Positions 1 to 58,302 of a stretch of 64,000 nucleotides of DNA are shown piece by piece (position 1 is the first letter of the stretch; every line of letters starts with the position of its first letter). Source of the stretch: Helicobacter sp. 'house sparrow 1' (GTDB taxonomy: Bacteria > Campylobacterota > Campylobacteria > Campylobacterales > Helicobacteraceae); the NCBI RefSeq assembly GCF_900199585.1, contig NZ_FZQY01000011.1, forward strand, positions 1 to 64,000, in the 5' to 3' direction. Both the position numbers and the translations under genes were made by a program. A model generated the notes under the pieces. It was not told where the DNA came from, did no database searches, and was given only the letters and a program-made list of their open reading frames with translations.

Positions 1-79
1 TATATTATTTAATTCATTGTTAAAAAAGTATAAAAAATGTAGAATTAGGGTTTAAAAAGGGGTGATAAGGGAGCTTTTA

Positions 80-1003
80 ATGGTTAATCTTAAAAGATGG
101 ATTTATATAAAAACAAGAAAATCTGGAAGCAGTTTTTTTTATATAAAGATGTTTTTTGATTTTTTAAAGGCAATAAGAAAACAATCTATTTATGCAGAGA
201 GTCAGTTTTTAATAGATCTTAATCGCAAAATCTGCACCACAGATTATAAAAGTTTAATGACCAACTCCACAAGAGATAAAAGAATAATAATTTCTCTTAC
301 TACTCATAAGGATAGAATCAATTATGTTCATTATTTACTTGATTCTTTATTTTTTCAAAGTTTGCATCCAGATGAAGTATGGCTTTATCTTTCTCAAGGG
401 GAATATAAACAAATTCCAGAGGTTCTTGATAGGTTTAAACCTTGGTTGAGGATTATTGAGACAGAGGATATAGGGAGTTTTAAAAAATTTATTCCTGCAC
501 TCAAAGAGTTAGGAGGAGGGGAGGAGTATTTGATTAGTCTTGATGATGATATTATGGTTAGACCTGATTTTATTTCACAACTCGTAAGACTTAAAGAAAA
601 ATATCCTCACGCAATGATTGGTTATATTGGACTTAAGGATAAGAATAATCAAACTTTGGGGTTGGCTGGTGCAACTGGTATTTTATGGGATTTAAAAACT
701 TTTAATATAAAAAAACATCCCTTTTTCTTTAAAAAAGAACTTTTTATTGATGCAATGGGTATTAAGAATAATGATGATCCTTGGATATCTTTTAGTGCAT
801 ATGCCTTAGGCGTGGATATACAGTATTTAAGTGATGATTTTTTTACAACCTATCGTAGGGATTTTATCGCATTGCCAAATGAAAAAATGTATGCACTTAG
901 TGCAGCACCTTCTGATTTAAATATTGTAAAAAAATCTCTAATGATTGAAAAAAATCTTAAGAGAATTATCAAAAATGCTATTGAAGCGGAAAAGAAGAGT
1001 TGA
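80..1003 (+). CDS. Glycosyltransferase, GT-A type
   Basis: Probable glycosyltransferase for surface polysaccharide or LOS. The middle of the protein has a GT-A style core: a strand with ISLTTHKDR, then a LISLDDDIMV segment whose DDD looks like the metal- and sugar-nucleotide-binding DxD motif, and a conserved NNDDPWIS stretch near residue 240. No signal peptide or membrane segment is evident. An in-frame GTG lies at 62, but AAGGGAG at 67-73 is correctly spaced only for the ATG at 80, so I start there (307 residues). It stands alone on this strand; its sugar donor and acceptor cannot be told from sequence. Confidence 0.75.
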   Translation: MVNLKRWIYIKTRKSGSSFFYIKMFFDFLKAIRKQSIYAESQFLIDLNRKICTTDYKSLMTNSTRDKRIIISLTTHKDRINYVHYLLDSLFFQSLHPDEVWLYLSQGEYKQIPEVLDRFKPWLRIIETEDIGSFKKFIPALKELGGGEEYLISLDDDIMVRPDFISQLVRLKEKYPHAMIGYIGLKDKNNQTLGLAGATGILWDLKTFNIKKHPFFFKKELFIDAMGIKNNDDPWISFSAYALGVDIQYLSDDFFTTYRRDFIALPNEKMYALSAAPSDLNIVKKSLMIEKNLKRIIKNAIEAEKKS

Positions 1004-1358
1004 TATTTTATTTTGATATCTTTATTAATGATCATTTTTTTATTTAAGATAAGTTTTTAGAAGTTGATGTTGAGAGATTAAGTATAAACAACTTATTGGG
1101 ATGGTGATAAAAAGATGAAAAAGCCTTATTTTTTGGTGTATTTGATGCAGGGTATGATGTTAGAAAAGTCTTAATGAAATTCTCTTTAATATCTTTATTT
1201 GAGACATAACTTTAATAGGGTTTAATTCTTAGAAGAGATGCGTGGAGTAGTTAGAATTTTATGAGGTAGTTAGGATTAAAAAATTATTTAAGATAAATTA
1301 TAGAAGCTATAGATTGCCTTTAGTATCTAGTTGAGTAATAAACTAGATTATTTTTAAA
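1004..1358. other. Gene-free interval between two converging genes
   Basis: 355 bases between the glycosyltransferase end and the rpoN end. All frames are broken by many stops. One plus-strand frame around 1109-1190 reads FFGVFDAGYDVRKVLMKF, which looks protein-like and could be a fragment of a lost gene, but I cannot assign it. A terminator-like hairpin lies at its right end. Confidence 0.5.
1325..1354 (+). terminator. Hairpin terminator candidate
   Basis: ATCTAGTT (1325-1332) and AACTAGAT (1341-1348) form a perfect 8-bp stem with an 8-base loop, followed on the plus strand by TATTTTT. The stem is AT-rich and so weak. It would end plus-strand transcripts from the glycosyltransferase; the minus strand lacks a T tail here. 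Confidence 0.4.
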
Positions 1359-2636
1359 CTAATGTGCACTAATAGCATAGTTTTTCTTGCGCTCACTAGA
1401 GCTTGGTATATTGAGTTGTTTTCGATATTTTGTGATGGTTCTTCTTACCATTTTAAGCGAGAATTTTTCTTCAATAAGTTGAAGGATACTAAGATCACTT
1501 AATGGTTTTTGCTTGTTTTCATTTTTGATAAGATCATTGATAAAATCTTTAATAGAGGCATTGCTTGTATCTCCATCAATGGCAGTAGTGAAGAAGTTTT
1601 TGATTGGGAATATACCGCGATTGCATTCAAGATATTTATTAGAGATAGCCCTTGAAATTGTGCTTGGGGCATGTCCAAACTCTTCTGCAAGATCTTTTAA
1701 CTTCATAGGCTTAATATCTTTTCCCATAAAAAAGTCATATTGATACTCCACAATCATTAGACCAATTTTTCTAAGAGTTTGTTTGCGCATATCAAGTGCA
1801 TCGATAAGATCTCTTGCTTCTTTTAACTTGGTTTTTAAGTAAGAATCTTGTTGTTTAACCTTAAGAGTATCAATTGTAATTTGAGGATAATAATCATCAT
1901 TAAGCATCACAGATATTTCCCCATCCTCATAAGCAACAAAAATATCTGGAATAATGCAGATATCAGATTCCATATAAGCAATTGCTGGTGGAGTTTGAAA
2001 TGTTTTAATTAATTGAAGTGCTTCTTGATAAAGAGGATTTTTTTTAAATTGAGTATGATTATCTAAGTCTTTGATGATTTTTGAGGCAATATTATATAGA
2101 TCATCACTAATAGATTCTAAATCTTGTAAATGGAATAGCAAACATTCTTTAATATTTTTAGAGCCTATCCCTTTTGGATCTAAAAAACAAAATCTTTGAC
2201 GAATTTTTTCATATTGTTCAGAATCTATACCAAGTTCTTTTGCCCTTATTTTGGTATCTGCATCAAAATATCCTTCTTCGTTTATATTATCAATAATATC
2301 TAGTGCAATTTGTTGAGAAATTTCTGTAGGAAATAATGGAGGAACAATTTGTTCTTCTAAAACTTGATAGAGACTTTTTTCTTGTATGCTTAGCATTTCT
2401 ATTTTGTCACTAATAGAATTTTTGACCGAAGAATTAGAATGGGGTTTTTTGAGCTTTGAACTAAAATCTTGGGTAATAGAACTTTGGATAGTGATATAAG
2501 GATTTTCTATAGCATATTCACTAATTGTCTCCTCAATCTCTAAGATATTGCTTTGAAGAATAGGGAGCCAGTTTTTTAGAGTATTTGAAAGTTTGCCCTT
2601 GACTTGTAGATTATGTCGTATCTTGGGGGCTGCCAT
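1359..2636 (-). CDS. rpoN: RNA polymerase sigma-54 factor RpoN
   Basis: Alternative sigma factor that directs RNA polymerase to -24/-12 promoters; in Helicobacter and Campylobacter it drives the middle flagellar genes (hook, basal body, minor flagellin) with an NtrC-type activator. Seen here: an N-terminal activator-interacting region (about residues 5-50), a core-binding region (about 90-280), a helix-turn-helix with LAEEFGHAPSTISRAI, and the RpoN box VRRTITKYRK at 397-406, the diagnostic motif that reads the -24 element. 425 residues, shorter than the roughly 480 of enterobacteria but usual for this group. It follows lptB with one base between them, so translation is probably coupled. Confidence 0.95.
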   Translation of the reverse strand: MAAPKIRHNLQVKGKLSNTLKNWLPILQSNILEIEETISEYAIENPYITIQSSITQDFSSKLKKPHSNSSVKNSISDKIEMLSIQEKSLYQVLEEQIVPPLFPTEISQQIALDIIDNINEEGYFDADTKIRAKELGIDSEQYEKIRQRFCFLDPKGIGSKNIKECLLFHLQDLESISDDLYNIASKIIKDLDNHTQFKKNPLYQEALQLIKTFQTPPAIAYMESDICIIPDIFVAYEDGEISVMLNDDYYPQITIDTLKVKQQDSYLKTKLKEARDLIDALDMRKQTLRKIGLMIVEYQYDFFMGKDIKPMKLKDLAEEFGHAPSTISRAISNKYLECNRGIFPIKNFFTTAIDGDTSNASIKDFINDLIKNENKQKPLSDLSILQLIEEKFSLKMVRRTITKYRKQLNIPSSSERKKNYAISAH

Positions 2637-2637
2637 T

Positions 2638-3360
2638 TTATACCTTGAAGTTTTCGCCTAAGTAGTATTTGCGCACCAATGGATTGTCATAGATTTCATT
2701 ACTAGGACCACTTGCAAGAAGAGTACCACTTTTTATGACATAGGCGTGATTGCAAACTGATAGGGTTTCTCTAACATTGTGGTCAGTAATTAATACGCCA
2801 ATATTAAGGGTCACCAACTTTTGAATGATTTTTTGTATGTCAATCACTGCAATAGGATCTACACCAGCAAAAGGTTCATCAAGCAAAATAAATTTAGGAT
2901 TCTTTACCAAGGCTCTAGCAATTTCAACCCTTCTTCTTTCCCCTCCACTTAAACTTACACCCTTACGATGTCTAATTGGTTCGATATTAAAGGCTTGTAG
3001 CATCTCTTCGATTCTATCTTGAGCCTCTCTTTTGTTTTTAAAGCTAGTTTCAGCAGAAATATTTAGATTATCTTCAACACTTAAATCCTTAAAAATACTT
3101 GATTCTTGAGGTAAATAACCAATCCCCATATTAGATCTTTGATGCAAAGGGGCATTGGATAAGTCCTCTCCATTTAACAAAACTTTTCCACCACTTGGTT
3201 TTAAAAGTCCGCAAATCATATAAAAAGTTGTTGTTTTTCCCGCACCATTAGGTCCAAGAAGGCCTACTACTTCACCACTATTAACTTCAATGGAAACATC
3301 TTTTACAATAAGATTTTTTTTGATTTGTTTGCTTAGATTTTGTGCCACCAACTTATTCAT
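2638..3360 (-). CDS. lptB: LPS export ABC transporter ATPase LptB
   Basis: Cytoplasmic ATPase of the LptB2FGC complex, which extracts LPS/LOS from the inner membrane and pushes it along the Lpt bridge. ABC motifs are complete: Walker [10 protein letters not shown] (36-44), signature LSGGE (137-141), Walker B FILLDEP (157-163) and the switch histidine in ITDHN (H194). 240 residues, the usual LptB length. Its start overlaps the end of tsaE by 8 bases and its stop abuts rpoN. The lptC and lptA genes are in the same window near 26 kb; lptF and lptG are not in the window. Confidence 0.95.
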
Positions 3361-3766
3361 ATATGATCCTATAGATTCTATGCGTAGTTTCTTTTGTAAT
3401 CTTCAAAGTGAGATAATTATACCCACTATTTTTTAGAATATCAGCTAAATCCTCTTCGCCCCATTCAATAAAGTGGATGCCATCATTTTCAAGTTGCTCT
3501 AAAAAACCAAAATAGAGAAATTTTTCAAGACTATGGTGGTAGAGATCATAATGATAAAAGTTTCCATATTGTTGGACAAAATTAAAAGTTGGAGAAGTGG
3601 CTTGAAATTTTGGATTTTTAGATTTAATGTATTTTTGCACCAAAGTGGTTTTGCCACTTGCTAAATCCCCTTGTAATAGGATAATTCTTACACCTTTGCA
3701 GATGTAATCATCTATTATTGGGAATAAAATCTGTAGATCTTTTTCTTGTAAAGCTTTTTCAATCAT
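3353..3766 (-). CDS. tsaE: tRNA threonylcarbamoyladenosine biosynthesis ATPase TsaE
   Basis: Small P-loop ATPase that works with TsaB and TsaD to make the universal t6A modification at position 37 of ANN-decoding tRNAs. Walker A GDLASGKT lies at 33-40, followed by the family marks SPTF (58-61), HYDLY (72-76) and EWGE (101-104). 137 residues, the normal size. Its start overlaps the dnaX stop by 4 bases and its end overlaps the lptB start, so the run dnaX-tsaE-lptB-rpoN is tightly packed and probably co-transcribed. Confidence 0.93.
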
Positions 3767-5481
3767 TGTTTTACTCTTTTAACTTCTTTGATATCTAGAT
3801 GTTGTTGCATACTCTGAATGAGCGTTTTGTTTTTTTCATAAAATTCTTGAAATTTTGTATTAGTTGCTTTGGTATCTGATGGGGTAGATATAAGATCTTG
3901 ATTGTGGGCAGAATCTGTTGTATTGCTTGTGTATACTGGGTTTTCTTGTTGTGTAGTTTGTGGTGTATTAACTGGGATATTTGTTTGAGTTTGTGTGTCT
4001 GTAGAATGTGAATTTATTTGTGCTGTTTGAGATGAGATTGTGGATTGCTCTTGTAGATCTATCTTAGGTGGTGTGTTTATGGCTTGAGATTCTTGGACTG
4101 TTGTTTGATTTAATGGAGATGAGTCTTTAAATTCTGATTGTTGGGGGATAATTTTTGTGTGAATACCAAAAATTTCTTGAGCAAAATTTTTGATTGTTGC
4201 GTAATTTTCTCTCAATAAATCTTTAGAAGATCCAATAGCTTTGCTCTCCCATATTAGAGTATTATTTTCAAAACTTATAAAAGTGATGTTATCCTCAAAA
4301 GTCTTTCCTAGTTCAAAATTACGATCATAAATTTTTGCAACAAGTTGTTCAAAAGATGTCAAGCCTGTATTTTTTATTGGAGTGATAACATTGGGTTGGG
4401 ATTGAGAGACAAAGGGTTGTTGTTTGATTTGTCTTTCAAGTCCTTGTATTTCCTCAGATATGAGATTATATTTTTGAGCCTCCTGCATTTTTAATCTTGT
4501 GAGTAATAAAACAAAACCCCCATCGCAATTAAGGCTTAAAAGATTCTTTGCTTGTGCAATGATTTGCAAATATCTATCAAGTATAAGCATTGATATGTTT
4601 GTTCTTTCTTTTATATGATCTTTTAGATAGAGCATCATCTCATCTAAGATTATTTCAGCTTCATATTCCTCAAAGATTTCAAGAATAGAATCTAGCTCAC
4701 TTTCATCTTGTGAGATTAATGCATTGAAATATCTTTGTAATATTTCTGTATCAACTGCTCCAAGCATTTCTGAGACTTTTGATCTTGTGATATTTTGATT
4801 GCAATAATTAATTGCTTGATCTGTGATGGTAAGAGTGTCTCTTAAACTTCCACTGCCACTTCTTGCAATAATCTCAATAGCATCTTTTTCATAAACAATA
4901 TTTTCTTTATCAAGAATGGAATATAAATGCTGAATAATGGCCTTATGGGGTATTTTTTTAAATCTAAAATGCTGTGTTCTGCTGAGTATTGTTGCAGGTA
5001 ATTTTAGGGGATCTGTTGTTGCAAGTATAAATTTTACATAGCTTGGAGGCTCTTCTAAAGTCTTTAAGAGAGCATTGAAAGCTTCTTTGGTAAGCATATG
5101 CACTTCATCAATAATAAAAATTTTATACCTTCCATAACTAGGTGCATAACGGGTTTGTTCAATAAGATTTCTAATATCATCAATTTTTCTACTTGAGGCT
5201 GCATCCATTTCTATAATATCAAGATGTCTTCCCTCAAGAGATTGTAAACAGCTATCACATTGATTACAGGGATCGCTAATTGGTGCTTTTTGGCATTGCA
5301 GGGCTCTTGCAAATATTCTTGCAGAGCTTGTTTTTCCACTACCTCTAAGTCCGCTAAAAAGGTAAGCATGTGCGATTCTATTACTCTGGAGTGCTAGGGA
5401 GAGAGTTTTTGCAACACTTTCTTGAGCTACTAAATCAGAGAATGTTGTGGGTCGGTATTTTAGTGCTAATGCTAAAGCCAT
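3763..5481 (-). CDS. dnaX: DNA polymerase III subunit gamma/tau
   Basis: ATPase of the clamp loader that places the beta sliding clamp on primed DNA. The AAA+ core shows Walker A GLRGSGKTS (44-52), four zinc-binding cysteines (63, 72, 75, 78), Walker B DEVHM (125-129) and the SRTQ sensor/arginine-finger motif (167-170). The C-terminal 200 residues are low-complexity, rich in Q, T and S (roughly 425-540), and unlike the structured tau domains of enterobacteria. I saw no obvious slippery A run with a hairpin that would make a separate gamma form. First gene of the dnaX-tsaE-lptB-rpoN run; 74 bases separate it from rnhB. Confidence 0.95.
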   Translation of the reverse strand: MALALALKYRPTTFSDLVAQESVAKTLSLALQSNRIAHAYLFSGLRGSGKTSSARIFARALQCQKAPISDPCNQCDSCLQSLEGRHLDIIEMDAASSRKIDDIRNLIEQTRYAPSYGRYKIFIIDEVHMLTKEAFNALLKTLEEPPSYVKFILATTDPLKLPATILSRTQHFRFKKIPHKAIIQHLYSILDKENIVYEKDAIEIIARSGSGSLRDTLTITDQAINYCNQNITRSKVSEMLGAVDTEILQRYFNALISQDESELDSILEIFEEYEAEIILDEMMLYLKDHIKERTNISMLILDRYLQIIAQAKNLLSLNCDGGFVLLLTRLKMQEAQKYNLISEEIQGLERQIKQQPFVSQSQPNVITPIKNTGLTSFEQLVAKIYDRNFELGKTFEDNITFISFENNTLIWESKAIGSSKDLLRENYATIKNFAQEIFGIHTKIIPQQSEFKDSSPLNQTTVQESQAINTPPKIDLQEQSTISSQTAQINSHSTDTQTQTNIPVNTPQTTQQENPVYTSNTTDSAHNQDLISTPSDTKATNTKFQEFYEKNKTLIQSMQQHLDIKEVKRVKQ

Positions 5482-5555
5482 TTATTCCTCTTTTGTTGGA
5501 TACTTAATTTCTGGGCTTATTGTATTGAGTTTTGTTTTAAAAACACATTACAAAA

Positions 5556-6152
5556 CTAGAATAATGAAGTATTTTTTTGAGAAGATTTAATAACAAAGCT
5601 TTTCCTATGATAGGGTGTGTAGCCTAACTTTTGAATCCTGTCAAGATGAGATTTTGTGCCATAACCTGCATTTTGTATAAAATTATATTCTGGATAGTTT
5701 TGATGCAATTTCTCCATTTCTTTATCTTTTGCATTCTTTGCCAAAATTGAAGCAGCAGATATCTGAGGAATTTTATTATCACCCTGTATGATGCTTATTA
5801 GTTTTAAGGAATCGGGTAATTTAATGCCAAAAGTAGTATTTCCATCTAGGTAAAAATTTGTAATTTTTGTTTGAAAGGCTTGAATAATTTCAATAATAGA
5901 TTCTTTTAGACATAAACTAAGGCCTTTGGAATCTATCTCCTTAGCATTCTTTTCTATAGTGATAAAAACTAAATTAGGTGTATTTTGTATGATCGAACTC
6001 ATTTTGTATCGAGCATCCTTAGATAGCTTTTTACTATCTTTTATCCCATTTTCTTGTAATAAAAGAGCAGTTTTTTCATCACATCCCACTCCAGAGACAA
6101 ACAAGCTTCCACATAAACTTCCTCTACCAGCCTCATCAATTCCACAAATCAT
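5556..6152 (-). CDS. rnhB: Ribonuclease HII
   Basis: Endonuclease that cuts the RNA strand of RNA-DNA hybrids and nicks at single ribonucleotides misincorporated in DNA. The metal-binding residues are present: GIDEAGRG at 4-11 (D6, E7), D103 in YLDGN and D125 in IQGDNK; the 2'-OH sensing GYGT loop is at 163-166. 198 residues, a normal length. Its start overlaps the end of the upstream ATPase gene by 4 bases (ATGA type), so the pair is translationally coupled. Confidence 0.95.
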   Translation of the reverse strand: MICGIDEAGRGSLCGSLFVSGVGCDEKTALLLQENGIKDSKKLSKDARYKMSSIIQNTPNLVFITIEKNAKEIDSKGLSLCLKESIIEIIQAFQTKITNFYLDGNTTFGIKLPDSLKLISIIQGDNKIPQISAASILAKNAKDKEMEKLHQNYPEYNFIQNAGYGTKSHLDRIQKLGYTPYHRKSFVIKSSQKNTSLF

Positions 6153-7189
6153 TCTACATGCTCCTTTAGTGCAAAGCTAATAAAATCGATAATTTTACAG
6201 CTAGGGTGATCAGACTTATTGATAGCAATGATAATAATCTGTTTATTAGGATTTTCTTTTAGGATTTTTTCAATATGCTGTTGATTGGGAAAGGCAATTG
6301 CAAAAAATAAAGTTTGATTTACAATAAAATGAGTATTTTGATCATAAACAATTTTTTCTTTATATTGTTGGTAAAGCTCTAAAAATACCATATTTTCAAA
6401 AATTGCTTGGAAGTTCGGATTGGGACAGAGTGCATAAGGAAGTGAAAAATCATAAAAATAGAGTTTTTTTTGAAAATTAGAGGAATCTTTTTGAGGAACT
6501 AAAAAAATTATTTTGCAAAGTTGAAGATAAGAGAGCAGAGCATAAAGCTTATCTTTGGAGATTTTGAGATATTTTTTGACATAAAGATAGATTTGGTTGG
6601 TCGTGATTTTTTGAGATTGAAAATTTAAAAGGAGGATAAAAGTAGCATAATCCTCTTTAAAAAATAACATCATATTATTTTGTTTTTTTGATATTTTTTG
6701 AAAATCTAGGCTATGAAAAGATTCTAATGAATTTCCCTCTTTAATGAAGTGATTTAGCAGTTGATTGGTATTTTCTTGAGAATTAATAAGGCTGATATAT
6801 TCTTCAAAAGTCAAAGGCATGATAAGCTTTGAAATAAAGGAAGTAAGATTGCCCTCTTTGGTTAGGTCTTTATGGTGAATGAGAATGATATTATCAATGT
6901 TAGGAATGGTAAAAATTGGTTGATAATTATCCAAAATTAAAAGATCGATCTTTTTTTCTAAAAAGGCCTTTAGTATTTTATTTTTAAGATCATCTATATT
7001 GTTTCTAGGATCCTGACAGTCTATATAGATGGGGTGTTTATAGTTTTTTGCAAATAAAAGTGCCAAAGATGTTTTTCCGCTTTTTGGAGGGCCATATAAG
7101 AGAGTTTTACCTTTTTTGATTCCAAATCTTCTAGGAAGCAATAAAAAATTTTGGGTTTTTTCTTCTAAAATTTTTTCTAATTCTTGCAT
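6149..7189 (-). CDS. P-loop ATP-binding protein of unknown role (HP1321-like)
   Basis: AAA-type ATPase with Walker A GPPKSGKT at 33-40 and Walker B LLILDN at 83-88. The layout resembles the DUF4143-like ATPases: an N-terminal nucleotide-binding domain, a helical or winged-helix middle part (about 165-230) and a C-terminal nuclease-like fold ending near 335. From memory, H. pylori HP1321 is an ATP-binding protein in the same place, next to rpsJ and close to rnhB, so position supports orthology. No partner toxin or membrane gene is nearby. Function unknown; it could take part in a DNA or RNA transaction, but that is only a guess. Confidence 0.6.
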   Translation of the reverse strand: MQELEKILEEKTQNFLLLPRRFGIKKGKTLLYGPPKSGKTSLALLFAKNYKHPIYIDCQDPRNNIDDLKNKILKAFLEKKIDLLILDNYQPIFTIPNIDNIILIHHKDLTKEGNLTSFISKLIMPLTFEEYISLINSQENTNQLLNHFIKEGNSLESFHSLDFQKISKKQNNMMLFFKEDYATFILLLNFQSQKITTNQIYLYVKKYLKISKDKLYALLSYLQLCKIIFLVPQKDSSNFQKKLYFYDFSLPYALCPNPNFQAIFENMVFLELYQQYKEKIVYDQNTHFIVNQTLFFAIAFPNQQHIEKILKENPNKQIIIIAINKSDHPSCKIIDFISFALKEHVE

Positions 7190-7229
7190 TTAATTCCAAT
7201 ATTTTTAATTTTTCTATGAAGTATATTAT

Positions 7230-7248
7230 TTTCCTTTAAATAAGGAAA
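7230..7248. repeat. Palindrome between divergent ATPase and rpsJ genes
   Basis: TTTCCTT (7230-7236) and AAGGAAA (7242-7248) form a perfect 7-bp inverted repeat around a 5-base centre. It lies between two divergent transcription units, 131 bases before rpsJ. It could be an operator or chance in AT-rich DNA. Confidence 0.3.
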
Positions 7249-7310
7249 CAAAATTTGTATTTTTATACCTAAAATGGCTATTAGAGATTGATTTAAAGAC
7301 TATTTTTTAG

Positions 7311-7316
7311 TAGAAT
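7311..7316 (+). promoter_or_regulatory. Likely -10 box of the ribosomal protein supercluster
   Basis: TAGAAT preceded by a T-rich stretch, the usual sigma-70 promoter shape in Campylobacterota, where the -35 box is not conserved. It is 64 bases before the rpsJ ATG and is the best candidate I see in the 190-base gap. Confidence 0.45.
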
Positions 7317-7379
7317 TTTGCTTCCATTTTTGGTAAATTACACCATTTTTAAGGTGAGTTCTTTTGTTGAAGGATATTT

Positions 7380-7691
7380 ATGGAAAAAATTAGACTTAAG
7401 TTAAAGGCTTATGACCACAGAGTTTTAGATAGATCTGTTGCTTCTATCGTTGAAGCGGTAAAAAGAACAGGTTCAGATATAAAAGGTCCAATACCTTTGC
7501 CAACAAAAAATAGGAGATATACTGTTTTACGCTCTCCACATATTAATAAGGATTCTAGAGAGCAGTTTGAAATAAGAGTGCATAGTAGAATCATTGATAT
7601 TATGTCAGCTACTCCAGATACGGTAGATAGCTTGATGAAACTAGACTTAGCTCCAGAAGTTGATGTTGAAGTTACACAAATGGGCAAATAA
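7380..7691 (+). CDS. rpsJ: 30S ribosomal protein S10
   Basis: First gene of the S10-spc-alpha supercluster. S10 binds the 3' domain of 16S rRNA in the 30S head, and in many bacteria also links NusB/NusG to transcription antitermination. 103 residues with the typical start [13 protein letters not shown] and the family loop around [24 protein letters not shown] precedes the ATG at proper spacing. Genes follow at 3-12 base gaps or with short overlaps up to rplO, consistent with one polycistronic message. Confidence 0.97.
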
Positions 7692-7701
7692 GGATTAAGT
7701 T

Positions 7702-8280
7702 ATGGAATTTTTAGTAGAAAAAATTGGAATGAGTAGAACAATTGACACACAAAGCGTTGCGGTTACTTTACTCAAAGTTCTTAATGCAAAAGTGTGTGAG
7801 GTATATGAAAACAAGAAGGCATTGATTGCTTATTCTAAAGGCAAGGCATTGAACAAAGCAATTGCAGGTCAGCAAAAAAAATACAATCTTAGTAAAGAAT
7901 TCAATCGTTTTGCAACAATCAATGTTGAAGGTGCACAGATTGGTGATTTAGATATGAGCGCTCTAGAAAGTGCTAAAAGACTAAAAGTAACCTTTAAAAC
8001 AAAAGGTAGAGGTTTTAGTGGTGCGATGAAGCGTTGGAATTTCCAAGGTGGTCCTGCAGCACATGGTAGTAGATTTCATAGAAGACTTGGTTCTATTGGT
8101 AATAGAGAGTGGCCTGGTAGAGTTCAACCTGGAAAGAAAATGGCAGGACATTATGGAAATGAAACTGTGACTGCTCAAAATGAGGTTATTTCTTTTGATA
8201 AAGAAAGCAATATTTTGGTATTAAAGGGCTCTGTAGCAGGTTTTTCTGGAGCTTATGGCAGAATTCAAATCATAAAGTAA
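7702..8280 (+). CDS. rplC: 50S ribosomal protein L3
   Basis: Early-assembly 23S rRNA-binding protein lying near the peptidyl transferase centre. 192 residues, with the conserved [23 protein letters not shown] region (about 108-130) that forms the extended tip, including the FxGGPxxHGS stretch. The glutamine that PrmB methylates in some bacteria falls in this region (Q115 here by count). Sits 10 bases after rpsJ. Confidence 0.97.
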
Positions 8281-8291
8281 GGTGAATAACA

Positions 8292-8909
8292 ATGAGCAAG
8301 GCAATAGTATTAGATAAGGAATTTAAGAAAAATAGCGAGGTAGAATTGCCACAAAGCTATAATGAGATAAAAGAACATAATCTTTACCTCTATGTAAAGT
8401 CTTATTTAGCTTCTCTGCGTAACAACACTGCAAAGGCAAAGAATCGTGGTGAAGTAAGTGGTGGTGGAAAGAAACCTTGGAGTCAAAAAGGTGGCGGTAG
8501 AGCTAGAGCAGGAAGTATTACTTCTCCTGTATTTGTTGGGGGTGGTGTTGCACATGGTCCTAGCAATAATAGAAACTATGACCTTAAGGTGAATAAAAAA
8601 CAAAAAAGATTGGCATTAGAGTTTGCTTTGAAACAAAAGGCAGATCAAGGGAAACTTTATCTAGTAGATTCTCTAGAAGTAGCAAGTGGAAAAACAAAAG
8701 ATGCATATAGTATGTTTAAATCACTCAATGAAAGAAGCACTTTATTTGTAGCTCAAATGAGCAATGAGAATACATTTTTGGCTTTTAGAAATTTAAGAGA
8801 ATGTTATTTAGTAGATTCTAATGAATTAAATGCTTACTTGGTGGCTGCTTTTAGATCTGTAGTGATGGAAAAAGCAGTATTTGATGAAATTGTTCAGGTA
8901 AATAAGTAA
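8292..8909 (+). CDS. rplD: 50S ribosomal protein L4
   Basis: 23S rRNA-binding protein whose extended loop lines the exit tunnel (macrolide resistance changes map here in other species). 205 residues; the loop is visible as [18 protein letters not shown] (about 57-74). In enterobacteria L4 represses the S10 operon through the leader RNA, but I see no comparable leader structure before rpsJ here. Confidence 0.97.
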
Positions 8910-8920
8910 GGGAGGATAGA

Positions 8921-9202
8921 ATGGCAGATATAACAGATATAAAATCAATCCTTTATACTGAAAAATCTCTAGCTCTTCAAGAGAGTGGAGTATTGGTAGT
9001 GCAAACTTCTAGTAAGGTAACTAAGAATCAATTAAAACAAGTTTTTAAAGATTATTTTGGTTTTACCCCATTGAGAATCAACTCTCTCAAGCAAGATGGA
9101 AAGGTGAAAAGATTTAGAGGTAGAATTGGGCAAAGAAGCTCATTTAAGAAGTTCTATGTTAAAGTTCCAGAGGGTGCGAAGATTGATTCGCTCACAGTTT
9201 AA
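8921..9202 (+). CDS. rplW: 50S ribosomal protein L23
   Basis: Binds 23S rRNA beside the tunnel exit and forms the docking site for trigger factor and SRP. 93 residues, with the typical YTEKSL start region and the [17 protein letters not shown] loop. Follows rplD by 11 bases with a GGGAGG-type ribosome binding site. Confidence 0.96.
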
Positions 9203-9213
9203 GGAGTAATACA

Positions 9214-10041
9214 ATGGCAATAAAAACATATAAACCCTATACACCTAGCAGAAGGTTTATGTCTGGATTAAGTTCTAGCGATATTACAGCAAAACCTAGT
9301 GTTAGAAAACTATTAATAAAGCTTCCTGTAACAGCAGGTAGAAATAATAATGGTCGTATTACAAGCCGACATAAGCAAGGTGGTGCAAAAAAGCTTTATC
9401 GTATTATTGATTTTAAGCGTAATAAGTTTAATGTTGAAGGTAGAGTAGTTGCAATTGAGTATGATCCATATAGAAATTGTAGAATTGCTCTTATTAGCTA
9501 TAAAGATGGAGATAAGAGATATATTATTCAACCTAGTGGTCTTAAGGTTGGAGATATTGTAATTGCAGCAGAATCTGGATTAGATATTAAAACAGGTTAT
9601 GCAATGAAATTAAAAAATATTCCTGTTGGAACCATTATTCATAATATTGAGATGCATCCTGGGGCTGGTGGACAGTTAGCAAGAAGTGCGGGTGCAAGTG
9701 CTCAAATTATGGGAAGAGAAGGAAAATATACAATCATTAGAATGCCTAGTGGTGAAATGAGATATATCCTAGGTGAGTGTATGGCTTCAATTGGTGTAGT
9801 TGGTAATGAAGATTTTATCAATATTAATATTGGTAAGGCTGGTAGAAATAGACATCGAGGTATCCGTCCTCAAACAAGAGGTAGTGCGATGAACCCTGTA
9901 GATCACCCACATGGTGGTGGTGAAGGTAAAACAGGTTCAAGTGGTCATCCAGTTTCTCCTTGGGGAACTCCTGCTAAAGGTTATAAGACTAGAAAGAAAA
10001 AAGCAAGCGATAAGCTGATTATTTCAAGAAAGAAAAAATAA
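9214..10041 (+). CDS. rplB: 50S ribosomal protein L2
   Basis: Highly conserved 23S rRNA protein needed for subunit joining and peptidyl transfer. 275 residues, standard length. The C-terminal signature with [14 protein letters not shown] (about 226-239) holds the histidine implicated in activity, and the protein ends in the usual lysine-rich tail. Confidence 0.98.
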
Positions 10042-37540: not shown

Positions 37541-37854
37541 TGCGGGTTGAAGTCTCAAAAGAGCTTAGTGATTGTTTAATTTTGAATGGAAGAATAAAAG
37601 ACTATGACGAGTTTTTGGAATTTAAGGCAGATTTAAAGGATTTATTAGAAAGATATAACAAGGAGGAGCCGATTTGCTTTTTCTTAAATCAAGCTTATCC
37701 TTTGGAATTTTGCGCAATCGGATATTTTTTAAAACTCAAGGAGTTTGATTCTTGGGATATTAGTATCCACACAAATGATATTAGAATTTTTAAATTTTTT
37801 GAAAAATTAGGACTGAGTGAGAAATTTAAAGTTATGGTTAGAGAGTTACGATGA
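37540..37854 (+). CDS. Small STAS-like protein
   Basis: 104 residues with the outline of a STAS (anti-sigma factor antagonist) fold: a central hydrophobic strand CFFLNQAYPLEFCAIGYFLKL (about 47-66) and a C-terminal stretch ISIHTNDIRIFKFFEKLGL like the RLxxxLELxGL end of STAS proteins. The place of the phosphorylatable DSSG serine is EFCA, so there is no obvious phospho-switch. Coupled on both sides: first base shared with the rluA stop, and its stop overlaps lgt. Role unknown; STAS membership is an inference from pattern. Confidence 0.4.
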   Translation: MRVEVSKELSDCLILNGRIKDYDEFLEFKADLKDLLERYNKEEPICFFLNQAYPLEFCAIGYFLKLKEFDSWDISIHTNDIRIFKFFEKLGLSEKFKVMVRELR

Positions 37855-38699
37855 ATCGATGGAATGAAGTTTATTATCATTTTAATCCTATAGCTTTTGA
37901 AGTATTTGGATATCCTATTCATTGGTATGGAATCGCATATGCTTTTGCCTTATTTGTTGTGTTATATCTTGCAAGGTATTTTCTAAAAAAAGATCGGAAA
38001 TATTTTAATCTTGATAATGTAACTTTGGATTATTACTTCATATGGGCAGAAGTTGGAATCATATTGGGAGCTAGGATAGGATATATTTTAATCTATGATC
38101 CTTTAAAAATAGAATATCTAGCCCACCCTTGGCAAATCTTTAATCCCTTTAATGATAATGGAGAGTTTATTGGAATTAGAGGGATGAGCTATCATGGAGG
38201 TGTGGTTGGATTTTTGATTGCTACTTATTTATTTGCAATCTATAAGAAAAAGAATTTTTTTCTATTAATGGATTTGATGGCTTTGAGTATTCCTTTAGGT
38301 TATATTTTTGGACGCATTGGCAATTTTTTAAATCAAGAGCTTTTTGGTAGAGTAGTGCAAAGTGATGGATTTGGTAAAAGTATTGGTATTTTAGTGCAGG
38401 GAGAGTTGCGTTATCCTAGCCAATTGATTGAAGCCTTTCTTGAAGGATTTGTAGTTTTTTTAGTAGTGTTTTTTGTTTATAAGAAAGTCAGAATCAAGGG
38501 TATTTTAATCGCAGTTTATGGGATTGCTTACTCAATTGCTAGATTTATTTCAGAATATTTTAGGGAGCCAGATGAGCAGATAGGAACTTATGTTTTTGGT
38601 CTAAGTATGGGACAAATTCTAAGCTTATTGATGATCTTGTCTGCCTGCATATTAATGTGTTTTGTCTTAAAACAAGGTCAAAAAAATAGAGTTTGTTGA
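37851..38699 (+). CDS. lgt: Prolipoprotein diacylglyceryl transferase
   Basis: Inner-membrane enzyme that transfers diacylglycerol from phosphatidylglycerol to the lipobox cysteine, the first step of lipoprotein maturation. Seven hydrophobic segments; conserved YAFALF near the first segment, IRGMSYHGGVVGF with the essential histidine (about 108-120) and GRIGNFLNQELFGR (about 146-159), the Lgt signature. 282 residues. Clients in this window include RlpA. Confidence 0.95.
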   Translation: MNRWNEVYYHFNPIAFEVFGYPIHWYGIAYAFALFVVLYLARYFLKKDRKYFNLDNVTLDYYFIWAEVGIILGARIGYILIYDPLKIEYLAHPWQIFNPFNDNGEFIGIRGMSYHGGVVGFLIATYLFAIYKKKNFFLLMDLMALSIPLGYIFGRIGNFLNQELFGRVVQSDGFGKSIGILVQGELRYPSQLIEAFLEGFVVFLVVFFVYKKVRIKGILIAVYGIAYSIARFISEYFREPDEQIGTYVFGLSMGQILSLLMILSACILMCFVLKQGQKNRVC

Positions 38700-38757: not shown

Positions 38758-38939
38758 TTTTCCCTCTCCTACCACCACTTGATCGCATCGTTATATAAAG
38801 GAGTTGGTTATTAAGATATACTCAAAACTTTCAAAAAAGTACATCTTCGTCTTTTTAAGATATTTCAGAAGAGGATTTTTATAAAACCCCGAAAAAAAAT
38901 GAATGAAAAGCATATCAAGTGGTGGCAAGAGAGGGAAAA
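38758..38939 (-). ncRNA. Candidate structured RNA closed by a 26-bp stem
   Basis: Arms 38758-38783 and 38914-38939 are reverse complements at 24 of 26 positions and enclose 130 bases. The two mismatches are A-C pairs on the plus strand but become U-G wobble pairs on the minus strand, so a minus-strand RNA would pair at all 26. An inner hairpin (GG-A-TTTT / AAAA-C-CC around 38872-38890) shows the same: A-C on plus, G-U on minus. This hints at selection on a minus-strand RNA about 180 bases long, the size of 6S RNA, though no known family signature was found. A mobile inverted-repeat element is the main alternative. Confidence 0.35.
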
Positions 38940-39459
38940 TTTCCAACTAAAACAACCTCTAATAGCCTTTACTTTATCTTAACTCTCAAATATCTGTGAC
39001 TCTTTTATTAATTAAAAAATCCTGACACTTTGGACTAAAAAAATCTAATCTAGAGATTAAATTAGTTTATTTTACTTCTAAAATAGTAAATATTAGGTTC
39101 TAATTTTTTGAGAATTTCCTTAAATTTTTAATGTTTTTATATAACTTTCTTATTGTTAAATGAACTGATGAGATAATTTTTAATCTTTTTAAAATTTTAG
39201 ATTCTAAGCTCTTGGTTAAAGTTCTTAAGGTCGTATCTAGGTTTGATTTAACTCTAGTTCTTAGAATAAAAAATCTTAAATGTCATTTAAAGTGGCTATA
39301 TCGAGTTTTTATTTATACAATGGTTCTTAAAATAATTTCTTTCTAATTTTTATCATAATTTACATAAATTAGATTTACACTAAGAAAAAGAATTGCAAAG
39401 TGAGTAATAATAGATTTAGAAACTAAAATTTAAAAGGTTCTTACAAGAGGGAAGCTTAA

Positions 39460-39477
39460 GGGGGTACCCCCCCCCCC
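39460..39477. repeat. G5-TA-C11 homopolymer tract
   Basis: GGGGG, TA, then eleven C in a row, followed by A and seven T. In Helicobacter and Campylobacter, C or G tracts longer than about eight often change length by slippage. This one lies 38 bases after the lutC stop, in no gene. The G5 and part of the C run can pair into a hairpin with a T tail on the plus strand. Confidence 0.6.
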
Positions 39478-39515: not shown

Positions 39516-40142
39516 TTAGTAGAGAAGAACATATACTTTTTGGGGACCATGAACCCCAAATACAACTTGAAGTTCGATATCTGCAGTTCTTGATGGACCA
39601 GCAATAAATAAAATGTTGCTAGGTAGAACATCAGGATAGTTTCTCTTGATTGCAGTGATTGCTTCAGAGAGATTACTCAAAATTTTATTTTTTTCTAAAA
39701 GAATAATGCAGTGCTTAGTAATGAGTGAAAGAAGTCGTGGTTGATTATGATTTGAAGTCAAAGTAATTACTCCAAGGTTGGATATTCCATAATCTGCCTG
39801 TAAGATTCCACACTCAATACTAAAAAGTTTGTCTTTAATTATCTCCATTGGTGTATCATAAACCAAAGTAGGGATAGAAATATCTATCTCTTTTTGCAAG
39901 CTTGCAGAAATTAGAGTTTGAGAGATATTTTCTCTTTGAAAAATTTCATTTAATATTTGTGAAATTTCATCTTTTTGTATATCAAAGACTTCTGCTTTAT
40001 TGGCTTCTTGCAAACGCTTATACTCTTTAATTTTGTCCTGCTCTTGGGGAATTATAATATCTTGATATATTGCTTGTTCGTTTTGAAGTGGATTTTGGAT
40101 AAGAGCTTGAGAAATACTTTGTAATATTTTTGCTTTACTCAT
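39516..40142 (-). CDS. lutC: L-lactate utilisation protein LutC, LUD domain
   Basis: Third subunit of the LutABC L-lactate oxidising complex. 208 residues ending in the LUD-domain motif with SNLGVITLTSNHNQPRLLSLI, a pattern seen for the nucleotide/lactate-binding half, and IAGPSRTADIELQVVFGVHGPQ (about 180-201), the clearest mark of LutC. Its start overlaps the lutB stop by 8 bases. Last gene of lldP-lutA-lutB-lutC. Confidence 0.92.
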   Translation of the reverse strand: MSKAKILQSISQALIQNPLQNEQAIYQDIIIPQEQDKIKEYKRLQEANKAEVFDIQKDEISQILNEIFQRENISQTLISASLQKEIDISIPTLVYDTPMEIIKDKLFSIECGILQADYGISNLGVITLTSNHNQPRLLSLITKHCIILLEKNKILSNLSEAITAIKRNYPDVLPSNILFIAGPSRTADIELQVVFGVHGPQKVYVLLY

Positions 40143-57019: not shown

Positions 57020-58302
57020 TTATCCTCCTGTAGAGTTAAAACACTAAAAGTTAATTGTTTTAATTCTGTATGTGATTTTATATAGGTATTGATTTCATCA
57101 AGTGTAATATTTTGAATTTGTTCAAGTTGTAATTGGTTAAAATCAAGAGGTAGGTCCAAATAATAGTTTTGAAATTTCTCATTCAACCTTTGTGCTAATG
57201 TCTCTCTTCTTAAAGGATCACTTCCTAGTAAGAATTGTTTAGCGCCATCTAGTTCTTCTTGTGTAATACCATTTGTAATAAAATTATTTACCACATCTTG
57301 AACAAGCTGTATAGCCTCATTTTGGTTTTCTAATTTTGTTTGCAAATAACCTGAGGCATAATTGATAATTTTTCCAGTATTTACTCTGAGATATGCAGAA
57401 TATGCCAATCCCCTTTTGACGCGTATTTCTTCCATAAGTCTGGAGCCAAAACCGCTAGATCCAAGAACAAAAGATAGAATTTTTGCCTTATAAGATTCTT
57501 TTTTTAGATCTGTGAGATAAAAAGGAGAACCAAAATAAATATATGCCTGTTGTGTGTCCTTATATATCGTGGATTGAGATGGTTTTGGGTTTGCTTCATA
57601 TTTATGGTTGGGTGCTTTTTTCCCAGTTTCTAAATGTGAAAGTAATTGTTTGATCTGATGGAGTATTTTTTCCTCATTTAAATCCCCACCTACTACCACT
57701 ACAATTCTTGATAACACTAGGTTATCTTCTAAAAAACTTTTAATATCTGATAATGTAATATTTTCTATTGTTTCTTTTGTAGCACTTTGTGCTAAAGGAG
57801 TATTTTCAAATAAATGTTTTGAGAGGTTTTTATCAGCAAGATAATCAAAATCATTTTCCTTTGCCAAAAGCATATTAATAGTATCTTGTTTGATTTTATC
57901 TAGAGTTTTTTGAGTGTAATTGGGATCAAGGAGAAGGTCTTGAAGCAATTGCAGTGCTTCTGTTTCTTTCTCTTTAAGGAAACTAAGTTCAATATTAAGC
58001 GTTTCAACTCCTGCTGAAGCATGCAAAGAAATCGCACGCTTATCTAGCTCTTCTGAGAATTTTATTACCCCAAGTGTTTTTGTCCCCTCATTTAGTAGTC
58101 TTGCACCCATAGAGGCAAGTCCCAGTAAGCTTCCATCATTGATCTTGCCACCACCTAAAAAGCTTAGTCGCATAAAACCCACAGGAATTACTTGAGATTT
58201 TTCAAAAATTACAGGAATTTCTTGGCGTTTAACTTCAATATATTGCATTGTTTTAGCCTGCATTATCACTCCTAGTAGTAGAATTAAAAGGATTTTTTTC
58301 AT
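57016..58302 (-). CDS. M16-family peptidase-like protein lacking the zinc motif
   Basis: Insulinase-fold protein (428 residues, signal peptide about 1-17). The catalytic HxxEH has been lost: where relatives read GLAHxLEHxLF, this has [14 protein letters not shown] (61-74), so H, E and H are S64, A67 and R68. The C-terminal R/Y pair domain is kept ([14 protein letters not shown]). In this lineage such a protein pairs with an active M16 partner elsewhere, like mitochondrial MPP alpha with beta. The H. pylori homologue is HP0657 by position (before gatB, after mqnC). 4-base overlap with gatB and a one-base overlap with mqnC. Confidence 0.82.

Follow-up and report, generated by a model that had tools for sequence, protein, structure and literature searches.

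The window analysed here is a stretch of 64,000 nucleotides from Helicobacter sp. 'house sparrow 1' (contig NZ_FZQY01000011.1). Between two convergent genes, lgt and a gene for a LUD-domain protein, it contains a long inverted repeat (38758-38939) and the remains of an autotransporter gene (Table 1). The arms of the repeat are 26 nt each, enclose 130 nt, and are complementary at 24 of 26 positions as DNA, as an earlier note on this DNA had described. No other inverted repeat in the window scores as high: this one reaches 20 and the runner-up 16, and the best score per window is 12-17 in 20 random first-order Markov windows. The note had also read both arm mismatches, and one in an inner hairpin, as A-C on the plus strand and G-U on the minus strand; all three are confirmed. 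Folding of both strands, which it had proposed as a check, gives -66.2 kcal/mol for the minus-strand RNA (z -6.9; 0 of 200 shuffles are as good) and -53.1 kcal/mol for the plus strand (z -6.6). A 51-aa ORF with a TTG start runs across the hairpin, but its frame is not expected to be conserved, since the inner lengths of related copies differ by non-multiples of three.

Table 1. Features of the hairpin locus and its surroundings in the window
Feature	Position	Strand	Remarks
lgt (prolipoprotein diacylglyceryl transferase), convergent neighbour	37851..38699	+	name from sequence
3' (right) arm, AUCAAGUGGUGGUAGGAGAGGGAAAA	38758..38783	-	similarity between copies ends at its outer edge
Variable inner part, 130 nt	38784..38913	-	
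Inner hairpin, common to copies of this genome	38813..38847	-	GC-to-AU pair changes; G-U in window copy and L065
L039-like stretch (gene end, 3' UTR, left arm)	38893..39138	-	about 80% identical to autotransporter at G000:C4:456 kb
5' (left) arm in sense RNA, UUUUCCCUCUCUUGCCACCACUUGAU	38914..38939	-	matched by the left arms of 12 other copies in the genome
Remnant, autotransporter C-terminal tail	39071..39229	-	33% identity over 54 aa to p60; in-frame stops; 0/200 shuffles
Remnant, autotransporter N-terminal/signal-peptide region	39331..39468	-	36% over 47 aa to p58; in-frame stops; 0/200 shuffles
Run of 11 C (G run in sense), start of dead gene	39467..39477	+	
LUD-domain protein (lactate-utilisation LutC-like), upstream neighbour	39516..40142	-	

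The two remnants stand in gene order on the minus strand between the LUD-domain gene and the hairpin, the start before the end. At the same lgt locus of H. anseris, lgt adjoins the end of an autotransporter gene, which is followed by the hairpin. The ordered remnants, the L039-like flank and the H. anseris locus together indicate that the autotransporter gene of the window has been reduced to scraps of both its ends, and that the hairpin was left behind, still fully pairing. Runs resembling the one at the start of the dead gene are found near the starts of intact autotransporters (L061 and L050); it is possibly a former phase-variation tract.

A whole-genome search finds diverged copies of the hairpin elsewhere in the same genome. 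The left-arm motif occurs 13 times in this genome and 18 times in Helicobacter anseris MIT 04-9362. Two more species of the genus (G003 and G004) have shorter relatives of 77-92 nt arm to arm, in which the arms are changed (CATCATTG in place of CACCACTT). The motif was not found in the other two genus members, G002 and G005, whose autotransporters are not followed by it. Outside the genus, pattern searches of 121 family genomes and 399 order genomes gave no recurring copies; such searches may miss more diverged relatives. Lone arm-like matches in other genera are taken as chance because none recurs within one genome as paired copies. The arm motif has a 17-base match in 15 contigs of IMG/VR. 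Within the window there is one lone arm-like match at 58142-58158 (2 mismatches; no partner arm reported close by). The hairpin belongs to an undescribed family that lies behind large autotransporter genes in some Helicobacter species. The copies are not uniform. L202 (G003:C13:477-543) carries its inner part in the orientation opposite to that of its sister copies, with the polarity of the arms unchanged; L042 (G000:C9, near 71.5 kb) has about 148 nt extra at its left edge compared with its sisters.

Placement is regular. Counting intact genus copies with enough upstream sequence, 13 follow the stop codon of a large autotransporter gene in sense orientation, at a distance of 64-336 nt, and a further copy does so at 811 nt; a structured 3'-UTR element should indeed stand in this way, in sense and at a regular place behind a stop codon. 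Four copies in this genome are preceded by long frames encoding proteins of 1215-1667 aa. Three of these proteins carry a Pfam autotransporter beta-domain; the fourth (C3) matches no Pfam model, and its last 574 residues are 76% identical to one with a beta-domain. Copies with no detectable upstream gene are the window copy, the copy at C4:571 kb, and some with merely 15-550 nt of contig ahead of them; the first two persist in this genome without an intact gene. The arm motif is absent near more distant autotransporters of this genome, such as those on C8 and at C7:80 kb. For many H. anseris copies and some in G003 and G004, the upstream gene is unseen because the contig ends. Many contig ends of this genome and of H. 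anseris fall within about 600 nt of a hairpin, and the draft assemblies are probably broken by autotransporter barrels; the copy numbers of intact autotransporter genes are therefore uncertain.

Selection for RNA pairing on the minus strand, which the note had proposed from the window copy, is supported by 35 arm pairs from four species, within the limits set by the relatedness of the copies. In the stem core there are 108 sense G-U cells and 1 A-C cell. By position the ratio is 10 to 1 (sign test p = 0.006); these counts are not independent, because the copies are related by shared history. All 35 arm pairs fold better in sense, and one G-U pair (left G, right U, adjoining GCC) is identical in all of them. 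When the 24 distinct rows are aligned (arms joined via an artificial four-base linker, which lies outside the counted pairs), 96% of cells are paired; one broken pair (U-U) occurs in H. anseris. The covariation score of these rows is 0.309, where shuffles give 0.164 and slid controls no more than 0.139; the number of two-sided pairs and the number of pair types are not exceptional against shuffles. The alignment with related Helicobacter genomes that the note had suggested reveals two-sided stem changes between species, for example CAC/GUG to CAU/AUG. Such pair-preserving changes are expected of a structured 3' UTR, although the related copies limit their independence. The inner hairpin follows the same pattern as the stem: in this genome its pairs occur as GC, AU or sense G-U, depending on the copy. 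It should be noted that some of the strand bias could instead reflect C-to-T mutation linked to transcription, in the non-template strand. In hairpins of single-stranded DNA, too, G-T is preferred to A-C, and the pairing evidence is therefore compatible with a role in DNA as well.

Hairpins of one species resemble each other more than their counterparts in the other. Mean identity within species is 0.67-0.87, and copies that occupy corresponding loci in this genome and in H. anseris are 0.36-0.45 identical (correspondence taken from flank matches and the lgt locus). That paralogues are closer than orthologues points to concerted evolution. The likeness is most simply explained if the hairpins are homogenised together with the ends of the autotransporter genes.

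The hairpin is probably a 3'-UTR module of large autotransporter mRNAs, which would act at the RNA level and be homogenised by gene conversion; the window copy would be a stranded one. The hairpin would be part of the sense mRNA, as a rule some 110-130 nt past the stop codon, and would close as a stem of 22-26 bp. Most likely it would set or protect the 3' end of the mRNA, with read-through transcripts trimmed back to the stem, and/or be cut by RNase III; RNase III and Rho are both encoded in the genome. No U-run follows either arm, and the sequence past the right arm is A- and purine-rich. A trimming barrier or an RNase III substrate thus fits better than an intrinsic terminator, which is an unlikely role given the missing U-run. 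Gene conversion among the autotransporter copies may keep the hairpins of one genome alike.

The earlier note had likened the hairpin to 6S RNA (RF00013) and had found no signature that it knew. The latter holds: an Rfam scan of the hairpin has no match at the gathering score, for 6S or for other families, and the long stem alone accounts for the matches by E-value to precursors of plant microRNAs (best 0.013; score 24.7, cut-off 230). The 6S model finds nothing in the window or in the whole genome and may not cover this group; since it detects no 6S RNA anywhere in the genome, this negative is weak by itself. The likeness to 6S is not supported by the comparison of copies. A length of about 180 nt, a long closing stem and a loose centre describe the window copy, but not the family, in which the inner part ranges from 27 to 208 nt (in a slightly wider arm frame used for comparing copies), so that length is not fixed. 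6S RNA is of single or low copy number and fixed length, with a conserved central bubble, whereas there are 13 and 18 left arms in the two genomes, and the intact copies with enough upstream sequence sit behind autotransporter genes. A free-standing regulatory RNA, whether 6S or an sRNA with its own promoter, would explain why the hairpin of the window outlives its gene; with this multiplicity and variable length, and with promoter-like sites not above chance, it is a very improbable reading. Equally improbable is a terminator between convergent transcripts. The window site lies suitably, between lgt and the lut-side gene, and has a strong stem, but the U-run that directly follows the G+C-rich stem of an intrinsic terminator is not found after either arm, and a scan finds no terminator-like site at the hairpin.

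Correia/NEMIS units of Neisseria are 100-160 bp long with bounding inverted repeats, and give rise to an mRNA hairpin that is bound or cut by RNase III (PMC2649163). The present hairpin, likened to them by description only, shares the terminal inverted repeats of about 26 bp that can form such a structure. Correia elements, however, are numerous, mobile and target-duplicating, and often lie 5' of many genes; the present family has 13-18 copies per genome behind one gene family, with neither insertion at unrelated sites nor target duplication seen. A MITE, or an element derived from one, that was caught behind an ancestral autotransporter gene and multiplied along with it would account for imperfect terminal repeats, discrete edges, a variable inner part and solo copies. 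By the note's standard, a mobile repeat would show itself in numerous copies placed at unrelated sites and flanked by target duplications, and numerous copies are indeed seen. The rest is not: the constant left flanks are 3' UTR common to the copies, those on the right vary, and a target duplication has no place in this arrangement. Copies also correspond in position between species, and in this genome no arm pair was seen to enclose a larger element of transposase size; a MITE origin is thus quite unlikely. The strongest rival, possible but distinctly less probable than a 3'-UTR module, is a DNA-level recombination boundary. The repeat would mark the end of the autotransporter unit and serve as a homology or hairpin site for gene conversion or cassette exchange between variable surface genes. 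Several traits agree with this: the compared copies are alike only as far as the outer end of the right arm, L042 has an insertion at its left edge, L202 of G003 has an inverted inner part, and the window copy combines an L038-like hairpin with an L039-like flank. The related Hsr autotransporter of Helicobacter mustelae, a protein of the same kind in a species of the genus, is varied by recombination of repeated cassettes (PMC2846917), although the term "inverted repeat" is absent from the text of that paper. Gene conversion alone does not need an inverted repeat, however, and a DNA site does not obviously explain the bias of imperfect pairs to one strand.

The 3'-UTR reading also has a parallel in the REP/BIME palindromes of E. 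coli, repeated hairpins which are reported to stabilise mRNA (PMC2267715). REPs are shorter, at 20-40 bp (PMC3733652), and are not tied to one gene family; the present hairpins have stems of 22-26 bp and span 77-258 nt. A bolder form of the 3'-UTR reading, which we regard as rather unlikely, is a shared 3'-end RNA code. A trans-acting factor (protein or RNA) would read the conserved stem, including the invariant G-U pair, and control all autotransporter mRNAs of the cell jointly. Arms and reader would drift in step between species, and orphan copies, if transcribed, would be decoys. If the 3'-UTR reading is correct, a family of variable surface proteins has one common 3'-UTR hairpin, alike throughout the genome, through which surface antigens could be jointly controlled or recombined. 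Strand-biased wobble pairs can reveal which strand of an inverted repeat works as RNA.

L179 of G004 (C27) has an additional left arm, at about 3645, that lacks a right arm, and palindromes of the GTCATTGCGAG type adjoin an autotransporter gene at 3080-3670.
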